A stretch of 64,000 nucleotides of DNA from positions 1 to 64,000 of the forward strand of contig NZ_JAQMUB010000101.1 in assembly GCF_028330965.1 (NCBI RefSeq), written 5' to 3'. The position numbers and the translations under genes were made by a program. This DNA comes from Oscillatoria sp. CS-180 (GTDB taxonomy: Bacteria > Cyanobacteriota > Cyanobacteriia > Phormidesmidales > Phormidesmidaceae). Shown piece after piece: positions 20,284-23,992 of the stretch. Below the pieces are notes generated by a model, which saw nothing but the letters and a program-made list of their open reading frames with translations, was not told the origin of the DNA and ran no database searches. Positions within the stretch are counted from its first letter, which is position 1, and each line of letters begins with the position of its first letter.

Positions 20284-21426
20284 TCAGCTGCGAATTTGCA
20301 CAGGCATCACCAAGTAGGTCATCTGAAGTTCGCCAAGAGGAATCATCACCGAAGGACTCGTAGCCGTATTGCATTGAAGCTGCACCTCGTTCGTATTGAG
20401 CGCCTTCAAACCGTCTAACAAATAGCGAACGTTAAACGCAATTTCCAAGGCTTCTCCTGTGACCTGAGCCGCCACGACTTCGCGGCCACTTCCGACTTCC
20501 TGAGCTTCAACCGATATCGCTACAGACTGTTGCTCGGGGTCCAAGGAAAGCTTGACGATGTTGTTCTTTTGGTCTGCAAGGACCGCAATGCGTTCCAAAG
20601 CATCGGTTAACTGTTTGCGATCAAGGGTGACTTGTCGCTCAAATTGTTTGGGGATGAGTTGACGATAGTTAGGATACTGCCCTTCTAGGAGACGGGTGGT
20701 GAGCTGTTGTTCACCGAGTTCAAACACAACCTGAGTGCGATCGAACTTGAGAGAAATGGGTTCCGACGACGTATATCCCTGCAACATCCGCTCTAAATCA
20801 CGCAGCGCTTTGGCTGGAACAGTGACATCCATCTTGGCGTCTTCACCAGATTTTCCAGTCCCTGATTCATCGCTGGTTTTTACCACAGATAGGCGATGAC
20901 CATCAGTTGCGGCAAACTCCAAAATCTCGGGTTCCGCCATCAGGTGTACCCCCGTCAATACCTGTTTTGTCTCATCACCACTACTGGCAAATAAAGCACC
21001 CCGCATGCCTTCTAATAGAGACTCTACCGAAAGCTCAGCCGCTTGGCCGTTTTCCACAGTGGGCAAGTTGGGATAGTCTTCTGCGCTGAGACCTCGAACC
21101 TGATACTCTCCTGATGAGCTAGTGATGGTAATGGCCGTATCTTCTGCAATTTCCTGAATGGCAATATCTTCTTGGGGTAAACGAGCAACGATACTTTCCA
21201 ACAGTTTTGCTGGCAACGTCAGTTCTCCCGGTTCCTCAACCCTTGCTTTAAAGGCAGTTTGGATGCCCATCGTTTCATCAAATCCGATCAGGGTAACGGA
21301 TTGAGCTTCCTCATCCACCTTAACTAGCACGTTGCTGAGGATGGGTCTACTGGGTCGTGCAGGAACGACCCGACCAACTAATGAAAGGTGAGTGTTTAGA
21401 TCATTTTGAGGACAAATGAATTTCAT
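20284..21426 (-). CDS. dnaN: DNA polymerase III beta subunit (sliding clamp)
   Basis: DnaN forms the ring-shaped dimer that tethers DNA polymerase III to DNA. The 380-residue protein starts MKFICPQNDLNTHLSLVGRV, the usual DnaN beginning. It contains PARPSRPILSNVLV near 25, GYTSSEPISLKF mid-protein and TRLLEGQYPNYRQLIP near 240. It ends YLVMPVQIRS, the clamp C-terminus that lines the partner-binding pocket. Three clamp domains of about 125 residues fit this length. It is read away from a cluster of DnaA boxes (21528-21794), as in cyanobacteria where oriC adjoins dnaN. No dnaA gene is adjacent. Confidence 0.97.
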   Translation of the reverse strand: MKFICPQNDLNTHLSLVGRVVPARPSRPILSNVLVKVDEEAQSVTLIGFDETMGIQTAFKARVEEPGELTLPAKLLESIVARLPQEDIAIQEIAEDTAITITSSSGEYQVRGLSAEDYPNLPTVENGQAAELSVESLLEGMRGALFASSGDETKQVLTGVHLMAEPEILEFAATDGHRLSVVKTSDESGTGKSGEDAKMDVTVPAKALRDLERMLQGYTSSEPISLKFDRTQVVFELGEQQLTTRLLEGQYPNYRQLIPKQFERQVTLDRKQLTDALERIAVLADQKNNIVKLSLDPEQQSVAISVEAQEVGSGREVVAAQVTGEALEIAFNVRYLLDGLKALNTNEVQLQCNTATSPSVMIPLGELQMTYLVMPVQIRS

Positions 21427-21527
21427 AGGGCTGATCTAGGGAAGTATCAAAATAAGAGCTGAAACCTGCTTGCGTTGACCAAGCCAAACGCACTGAACTG
21501 AACGGATGCTTATCGTATCACCCTGCC

Positions 21528-21794
21528 TTTTCCACGATGTTTGAAAAGAGGCAAAGAAGGATTTAGATCAAATTTTTCTTATAGACGTAATAGTAAGTCT
21601 TGCGGAAAGTGTGGATAATTTGGGGATCGCTTAGTCTGTAAGGTATTCAACTTCCCCAGGATTGTGGAAAACAAGGGGGCAAAAATAGGCGTTCTCCACA
21701 ACCCTCACGGTTGGTAGATTCTTTTCCCCATAGGAGGGTGAAAAGTCCACGATTTAGAGGTCCGTTTTCCACACCGGCGTTCTGTTTTTCCACA
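21528..21794. other. Putative chromosomal replication origin (oriC) with DnaA boxes
   Basis: Within the 530 bp between dnaN and the ABC exporter I find four perfect DnaA 9-mers. They are TTATCCACA on the minus strand (21610-21618), and TTTTCCACA at 21663-21671 (minus), 21765-21773 (plus) and 21786-21794 (plus). Near matches are TTTTCCACG at 21528-21536, TTCTCCACA at 21692-21700 and TTTTCCCCA at 21722-21730. An AT-rich stretch at about 21559-21600 could be the unwinding element. The position beside dnaN matches known cyanobacterial origins. No protein gene of substance lies here; a 65-codon frame (21711-21908) is not supported. Confidence 0.72.
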
Positions 21795-21957
21795 CTATTC
21801 ATTCCTGAAGATTTCACATATCTTTACAGCTTGTTAGTAGATCGCTTTATGCGAGTCAACTTCAAAGCTGGAAGGTTAACAGCTTTAGTTGATGCGAAGT
21901 TTATCTAACTCTCACGACAGTACTCGTCAGGAAGATTTGAATAACTTGAGAGGTGCT

Positions 21958-23730
21958 TTATCGCAGAACCTCTTCCAATTTGTGCTGTTCCCATAGTTGC
22001 TGATATAGACCGGGTTTTTGCACCAGCTCTGTATGAGTACCGACTTGAGCAACGTGACCTTGATCCATCACGATGATGCGATCAGACAGTGCTGCAACGC
22101 CCATCTGATGCGAGATAAAGACGACTGTTTGGTGTTGAGTGCCTGTCTTTAAATTTTGCAGAATGTTGGTTGCGGTTTGGTTATCGACGCTAGAGAGGGC
22201 GTCATCTAAGACCACGACCGGAGCTTCAATCATGAGAGCACGGGCGAGGGCCGATCGCTGCCGCTGTCCACCGGACAAAGTAATTCCTCGCTCACCCACG
22301 ATGGTTTCGTACTGACGCGGGAAATTGTCAATCTCAGGAGCAATTTGAGCAAGCTTTGCAGCATGTTGAATGTCTGTAAACTCAGCTAGTGGTTCGCCAT
22401 AGCGAATGTTGTTGTTGATAGTGGTGCTGAACAGAAAACTTTCTTGGGGGACATAGGCGATCGCGCGACGTAAATCGGCTAGGGGCAGCGTCGTAATATC
22501 TTGCCCGTCTAGAAAAATTTGACCTGGAGCAATATCGAGTAAACGCGGCAAAGCATTGGCCAGTGTGGATTTGCCCGATCCGATAGGTCCCACAATAGCT
22601 ACGGTTTCGCCAGGATAGATGATGAAAGAGACTTGATTGAGTGCTGGAACTGGGCTGTCAGGATAGCTAAAGCTCAGATTTCTAGCTTCCAGTTGACCCT
22701 TCACACCATAGTCAGGCAGAGCTTGAACGGTGGATGCATCGGCTATTTTGGGCTGACTTCTGAGAATAGCCTCGACGCGATCGATGCTGACTTCGCCGCG
22801 CTGATAGGCCGTGATCGTAAAGCCCAATAGTGCAGTGGGAAAAACTAGTCGCTCTACATAGAGGATCATGGCAACAAAGTCACCGACTGACAGCAGACCA
22901 TTGGCGATGGTTCCGGCTCCAGTCGCTAGGATGAGCAGCAGGCTGATGCTGGCTAGTCCCCCCAGCAGGGGGAATAGAGTATTACGGGTACGAGAAAGTT
23001 TGAGGTTAGCTTCTAGGAGATCGCTGTTTAAGTCAGCGAATGCTAGCCGTTCATTATTCTCTTGAGCATAGATTTTGATGAGGGCAATGCCGCTTAGATC
23101 CTCTTGGATCAGTTCGCTCAGTCGCGAGGTGGCCTCTTGCACCTTGAGCTGCTCATCGCGTAGCCGTTCGCTGAACAGCATGACCAGAATCAGCATGACG
23201 GGATAAACCATTAAGGCTACGACGGTCAGCCGCACGTTGAGCGACAGCATGACAGGAACCGTAAAGGCATAAGCAAATATCGTGTTCGCGAAGCTGAGGA
23301 TGGCAAAGCCCAAGAGTCGCCGGATGTTGTCAACGTCACTAGTAGCTCGGCTGATCAGTTCTCCGATGGTGTTAGTGGCAAAGTAAGCCGGTTCCATCCT
23401 CAGCAAATGCTCAAAAATCCGTTGTTTTAAGTCGAATTCGACCTGCCGACCGACGCCAAATAAAAGGATGCGGGAAGCCATGCGGATGACCCACATCACC
23501 GAAGCGAGAACCAAAACGACGATCGCATAGTTGGCAATCTGATCAAAACTGAAGGTTGTCCTCAGATCATCAATACCATCTCGAATGAGGAGCGGAATGC
23601 GAGCGCCTAAGAGATTGACCAATAAGAGTGCCAGAATGCCTGAAGCGGTCTGTATCCAGTGGGGTTTGAGATATTGACCCAGTTGTCTCAGATGCCTGTT
23701 TTTCTGCGAAGGGCTGCTTGAACGCGCCAT
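21958..23730 (-). CDS. ABC exporter, fused membrane and ATPase domains (multidrug/lipid type)
   Basis: From the ATG at 23730 this encodes 590 residues; a TTG six codons upstream is not needed. Residues about 30-310 are a six-helix type IV transmembrane domain (IQTASGILALLLVNLL and others). TNTIGELISRATSDVDNIRR is the coupling region. The ATPase domain starts near 350: GPIGSGKSTL is Walker A, YVPQESFLFS the Q-loop, LSGGQRQRSALARAL the signature, and VVLDDALSSVD Walker B, followed by FISHQ. It is a half-transporter that must dimerise, of the MdlB/BmrA/MsbA class. The substrate is unknown. It is read toward the putative oriC. Confidence 0.93.
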   Translation of the reverse strand: MARSSSPSQKNRHLRQLGQYLKPHWIQTASGILALLLVNLLGARIPLLIRDGIDDLRTTFSFDQIANYAIVVLVLASVMWVIRMASRILLFGVGRQVEFDLKQRIFEHLLRMEPAYFATNTIGELISRATSDVDNIRRLLGFAILSFANTIFAYAFTVPVMLSLNVRLTVVALMVYPVMLILVMLFSERLRDEQLKVQEATSRLSELIQEDLSGIALIKIYAQENNERLAFADLNSDLLEANLKLSRTRNTLFPLLGGLASISLLLILATGAGTIANGLLSVGDFVAMILYVERLVFPTALLGFTITAYQRGEVSIDRVEAILRSQPKIADASTVQALPDYGVKGQLEARNLSFSYPDSPVPALNQVSFIIYPGETVAIVGPIGSGKSTLANALPRLLDIAPGQIFLDGQDITTLPLADLRRAIAYVPQESFLFSTTINNNIRYGEPLAEFTDIQHAAKLAQIAPEIDNFPRQYETIVGERGITLSGGQRQRSALARALMIEAPVVVLDDALSSVDNQTATNILQNLKTGTQHQTVVFISHQMGVAALSDRIIVMDQGHVAQVGTHTELVQKPGLYQQLWEQHKLEEVLR

Positions 23731-23992
23731 ATCTATCCCAAACTCCAACCCTCCTCATCCTAGACGATGTTTGGGTTTACTCCGTTCAACACTGAATCCA
23801 TAGGCATTCCATACGAATCGTCGTTGTCATCGCCTGACTCCTGTTGCTGAAATCCAATCCATAGGGAACAGGGGATAGGGAACAGAGTGTATTGATTGCA
23901 CTTGCAGACCGCGTATCAAGCCAATCCAGTTGGTTCGATACTGTGATTCAACGCGGGGGCGATGACGAACGCTGAGTCGAACTGGAACAGAA

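Follow-up and report, generated by a model that had tools for sequence, protein, structure and literature searches.

A predicted chromosomal replication origin of the DnaA-box and DnaA-trio type beside dnaN in Oscillatoria sp. CS-180

The intergenic region between dnaN and an ABC exporter gene in Oscillatoria sp. CS-180 is very probably the chromosomal replication origin (oriC), of the type that combines DnaA boxes with DnaA-trios. It lies in the window analysed here, a stretch of 64,000 nucleotides that forms bases 1–64000 of contig C44 (162.6 kb) in a draft genome of 6.53 Mb (6,529,313 bases; 102 contigs). An earlier reading of the bare sequence had already proposed an origin at this place, and the proposal is supported by the register of the boxes, by an unwinding module, by a unique match to an origin model built with the window left out, by an intact dnaA gene and, to a limited degree, by a local minimum of GC skew. 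Directly observed are the sequence elements, with their conservation and genome-wide uniqueness, and an intact dnaA. Origins beside dnaN are textbook knowledge for cyanobacteria; the site itself was therefore to be expected and is almost certainly an ordinary origin of a known type. What the present analysis adds is the comparison, in which a single core of roughly 215 bp, with a fixed order of boxes and a trio module, is recognisable across the class.

Architecture of the dnaN-exporter gap

Open reading frames and Pfam domains bear out the two genes that the sequence-only reading had placed around a gap of about 530 bp, and the candidate region directly adjoins dnaN (20284–21426). DnaN is 85% identical to that of Halomicronema sp. 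CCY15110, 84% to that of Leptolyngbya sp. SIOISBB and 73% to that of Leptolyngbya sp. PCC 6406. An Rfam search across the window gave no matches. The features, in window coordinates, are as follows.

20284–21426, minus strand: dnaN, DNA polymerase III beta clamp, with all three beta-clamp Pfam domains
21427–21957, no strand: dnaN/ABC-exporter intergenic region holding the putative oriC, from open reading frames, Pfam and box count
21528–21536, plus strand: one-mismatch box TTTTCCACG, outside the core; register retained in just 4 of 25 family members
21559–21600, no strand: AT-rich stretch that adjoins and overlaps the trios; putative DNA unwinding element
21581–21794, plus strand: predicted oriC core (about 215 bp); full-length model match, 111.6 bits, E 7.7e-32 in the whole genome (model E-values are rough, from a shortened calibration)
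21588–21596, minus strand: DnaA-trios 5′-TTA CTA TTA-3′ (opposite strand 3′-AAT GAT AAT-5′), 13 bp from the exact box
21601–21609, minus strand: tandem low-similarity DnaA box CTTTCCGCA, 2 mismatches, from the alignment and a scan with the published rule
21610–21618, minus strand: DnaA box TTATCCACA, exact, predicted anchor of the unwinding module; at most 1 mismatch at this register in 23 of 25 family members
21663–21671, minus strand: DnaA box TTTTCCACA, exact; at most 1 mismatch in 25 of 25 family members
21692–21700, plus strand: weak DnaA box TTCTCCACA, 1 mismatch; at most 1 mismatch in 23 of 25 family members
21722–21730, plus strand: weak DnaA box TTTTCCCCA, 1 mismatch; at most 1 mismatch in 22 of 25 family members
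21765–21773, plus strand: DnaA box TTTTCCACA, exact; at most 1 mismatch in 25 of 25 family members
21786–21794, plus strand: DnaA box TTTTCCACA, exact, and exact also in 25 of 25 family members
21958–23748, minus strand: ABC exporter, at the site of the relatives' dnaA, from Pfam and synteny

The earlier claims of four perfect boxes, three one-mismatch copies and a clustering beyond chance all survive recounting. Exact matches to TTWTCCACA occur four times within 185 bp, two per strand; the one-mismatch copies are at 21528(+), 21692(+) and 21722(+), and all seven boxes span 267 bp. Those at 21765 and 21786 are set 21 bp apart, which corresponds to two helical turns. Because its register is so poorly retained in the family, the box at 21528 is possibly incidental or lineage-specific. 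A fifth exact box that had gone unmentioned lies inside dnaN (21050–21058). The whole genome holds 107 exact sites (68 TTTTCCACA and 39 TTATCCACA). Per 530 bp, 0.0084 exact boxes are expected, and the Poisson probability of finding four or more is 2e-10, or about 2e-6 to 2.5e-6 genome-wide. No other site in the genome reaches four exact boxes, whether counted over 300 or 800 bp, and the strongest competitors (on contigs C20 and C45) have three; the genome-wide box count that had been suggested as a check revealed no equal cluster elsewhere.

The AT-rich stretch noted earlier is indeed the most AT-rich part of the gap (74% AT, where the gap as a whole has 57%), and 42-bp intervals as rich as this make up just 0.24% of those across the 64 kb. 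Along the minus strand the order is TTATCCACA (21618–21610), CTTTCCGCA, AGAC, TTA CTA TTA CGT CTA and then AT-rich DNA, the last CTA (21582–21584) being an extra triplet beyond the three trios. Relatives carry GTTTCCACA or TTTTCCACA at the aligned position of the tandem box (21601–21609) and read TTTTCCACA-GTTTCCACAG-GCC-CTACTACTACTA across the module. Most of them conserve the trios as TAGTAGTAG repeats, reading (CTA)3-6, and these TAG repeats keep the same register as the trios of CS-180. The order box, spacer, trios has been described for Bacillus subtilis and is predicted in 85% of bacterial origins, most commonly with a spacer of 13 bp; in vitro work with the DnaA of Synechococcus elongatus has demonstrated unwinding through DnaA-trios, on that species' own origin only (PMC8287927). 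A scan with the published rule, which looks for a DnaA box of at most two mismatches and at least three NAN trios within 16 bp (PMC8287927), picked out TTATCCACA, the 13-bp spacer and TTA CTA TTA. Since it is also satisfied, with lower scores, at two further boxes of the gap, the rule applied to a single genome is a poor discriminator when used alone.

By analogy with homologous systems, we infer that DnaA binds, melts the DNA and initiates replication at 21427–21957. DnaA-ATP would load on the spaced high-affinity boxes, and a DnaA filament would run from the box at 21610–21618(−) through its weak tandem neighbour and along the single-stranded trios (21596–21582). The filament would thereby open the AT-rich stretch at 21559–21600, where the helicase would be loaded and from which two forks would leave.

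Conservation of the core among relatives

Regions upstream of dnaN were fetched via DnaN from 29 relatives and aligned. The boxes share columns and strands across the aligned relatives, and at six of the seven box positions at most one mismatch is seen in 22–25 of the 25 family genomes outside genus g12 that were used for the register counts. Among members of the genus of CS-180 and the near relative G012, pairwise identity is 0.958 in box columns versus 0.517 in other columns (p 2e-17), and that of the trio region, at 0.774, also lies above background (p 5e-5).

The named members of genus g12 are Nodosilinea and allied strains, and in this group the boxes at the shared register are eroded, whereas the run of trios persists. 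Three of its genomes (G023, G032 and G028) have 3–4 exact boxes tightly clustered between two divergent genes, one for a sigma-70 factor and one for PriA, at a distance of 22–38 kb from dnaN (L218:9030-9123, L220:10420-10468 and L222:10492-10540); candidate readings of this cluster are a relocated origin and a DnaA-controlled promoter. Among Nostoc and related named genomes (L193–L216), the 800 bp upstream of dnaN are free of exact boxes at most Nostoc loci, whereas 5–7 boxes and a linked dnaA persist in Anabaena sp. 4-3, Nostoc sp. FACHB-280 and Nostoc sp. JL33.

The origin model comprises 216 positions and was built from 18 relatives. After the full-length match in the window, the next independent match in the genome is an array of boxes on contig C20, at 21 bits. 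The core was matched in 188 of 194 genomes of the class, a set that includes some of the 18 model-building genomes. Outside the family, the positions of core and dnaN are both listed for 20 genomes, and in 19 of them the two are no more than 650 bp apart (distances read by hand). In the exception, G052, the C-terminal domain of dnaA is 365 bp from the core, and dnaN is distant on the same contig (3.08 Mb).

The position of dnaA, GC skew and alternative readings

The dnaA gene of CS-180 is intact, a 473-aa frame at C37:97099-98517 with DnaA_N, Bac_DnaA and Bac_DnaA_C domains, and the single DnaA box found at dnaA itself lies within the gene. The earlier statement that cyanobacterial origins lie beside dnaN rather than dnaA holds for CS-180 and for S. 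elongatus but is not general: many relatives, from the same genus as well as from the same family, show the order dnaA-oriC-dnaN, and in G052 the core is beside dnaA. In six relatives (G001, G003, G004, G005, G011 and G012) and many other family members, dnaA sits across the origin and points its 3′ end towards it; by hand reading, at least 30 of some 150 listed genomes have no more than about 1 kb between the core and the dnaA C-terminal domain. Judged by gene order, the usual arrangement has been broken in the CS-180 lineage, dnaA having moved and oriC having been left with dnaN. Genes upstream of dnaA in G005 match genes next to dnaA at its new place on C37. The literature on Nostoc (PMC5987646) and S. 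elongatus (PMC3480399) already describes origins that lie between dnaA and dnaN or occur where these genes are separated.

Three genomes of at least 90% completeness are without dnaA (G166, G172 and G178), and the core is absent from all of them. The other three of the six core-less genomes (G146, G169 and G204) have dnaA and all belong to family f2. The overlap between loss of dnaA and loss of the core has a hypergeometric probability of about 2e-5 on the assumption of independent genomes, an assumption that does not hold. Two incomplete genomes, G122 (62% complete) and G134 (83%), gave no dnaA match and have the core. The joint absence of core and dnaA agrees in direction with the published loss of DnaA dependence (PMC7198777).

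GC skew, a further check suggested earlier, gave a divided answer and lends the oriC reading limited support. Along C44 the cumulative skew reaches its lowest point at kb 21 and climbs from there to the other end of the contig (p 4e-4 by permutation of 5-kb blocks), with a left arm of just 21 kb and confounding by gene orientation. Chromosome-wide skew was sampled in the same-genus relative G005, as 80 stretches of 20 kb over 7.87 Mb. It is weak there, with a minimum at 3.15–3.25 Mb, whereas dnaN is at 3.606 Mb, some 0.4 Mb away; fitting two symmetric arms gave no significant result (p 0.24), and left/right contrasts about dnaN had the right sign with p 0.05–0.27. In the sampled half of G011, its presumed right replichore, skew is not positive (mean -0.0035, p 0.3). 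Cyanobacterial skew is usually weak or irregular (PMC7198777, PMC5987646), so that these data decide neither for nor against an origin beside dnaN.

In one alternative reading the region is a true ancestral oriC that has become a relic or optional, replication now being independent of DnaA and starting at multiple sites, the situation in Synechocystis PCC 6803 and Nostoc PCC 7120. DnaA dependence has been lost several times among cyanobacteria, some of which have dnaA and replicate without needing it (PMC7198777), and such a history would fit both a dnaA that no longer adjoins oriC and the irregular chromosome-wide skew of the relative. We nevertheless consider it improbable here, given that dnaA is intact and that the core, with its four exact boxes and box columns that are 96% identical, is uneroded, unlike the corresponding positions of the Nodosilinea group, which are decaying.

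It could also be argued that the gap is a DnaA-controlled promoter region of dnaN (or of the exporter) and not an origin, as the boxes lie directly upstream of dnaN and DnaA doubles as a transcription factor in other bacteria (PMC7198777). This is very unlikely: the core of G052 stays with dnaA, far from dnaN, and the core includes trios and an AT-rich melting stretch that a promoter would not need.

The array on C20 (C20:38388-38504; L014:10388-10504) lies between sfsA and a small DUF2811 gene. Its five boxes, three of them exact and two with one mismatch, share a strand and are spaced by 11 and 20–22 bp; a conserved block containing TTGACA follows. Among the genomes examined the array was found in 14 of 20 from the family and in 0 of 10 from outside it. 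The idea that this array is the real origin and the dnaN site secondary could draw on three conserved exact boxes within 40 bp at helical spacing, but we give it hardly any credence and rejected it on model score, skew and trios: it scores 21 bits against 112, contig C20 has flat skew, the alignment shows no conserved DnaA-trio at the one-stranded boxes, and the array is absent from six family members and all ten outgroups and lies away from both dnaA and dnaN. It is possible that the array serves as a DnaA titration or regulatory site. A further proposal, which we consider less likely than not, is two-site control, in which the sfsA array would titrate or reload DnaA in the manner of datA or a DnaA-box cluster and so set the firing time of oriC. 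A literature search on DnaA-box arrays at sfsA found nothing relevant.

Other clusters were also set aside as origins. The one on C45 (L015:10351-10653), a contig of 32 kb, lies close to the contig end, where its three exact boxes fall within the reading frame of a 357-aa winged-helix protein; this frame contains internal repeats around VLPQ(R/D)N.VAP, and the protein is possibly a plasmid replication protein. The clusters on C71 and C43 have just two boxes each.

Comparison with known origins

Whether a given cyanobacterium uses DnaA and oriC has so far been settled strain by strain through knock-outs. The presence of the core in 188 of 194 genomes, its absence from the three near-complete genomes without dnaA and its decay in the Nodosilinea group suggest that it is a candidate predictor of DnaA-oriC initiation that needs nothing but sequence.

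The oriC of S. elongatus PCC 7942 is intergenic, beside dnaN, and contains 11 DnaA boxes, with dnaA elsewhere in the chromosome (PMC3480399, PMC7198777). The CS-180 region resembles it in adjoining dnaN, in the TTTTCCACA consensus, in the unlinked dnaA and in combining boxes with a trio module; it differs in having fewer boxes (four exact and three near) and an ABC exporter on the far side. The S. elongatus origin was determined experimentally (PMC7198777), whereas that of CS-180 is a prediction from sequence. The oriC of Cyanothece ATCC 51142, which was predicted and tested in vitro (PMC4674748), likewise has TTTTCCACA boxes beside dnaN. It has three boxes, whereas CS-180 has a fully spaced core with trios that fits the family-wide model. 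Outside the cyanobacteria, the closest parallel drawn here is with the basal unwinding system of B. subtilis (PMC6669920, PMC8287927), with which CS-180 shares a box and a weak tandem box, three or more trios set 13 bp from the exact box, and AT-rich DNA beyond. Unlike the repeated GAT of B. subtilis, the trios of CS-180 read AAT GAT AAT, with a fourth triplet off the pattern, and their function is a predicted one.
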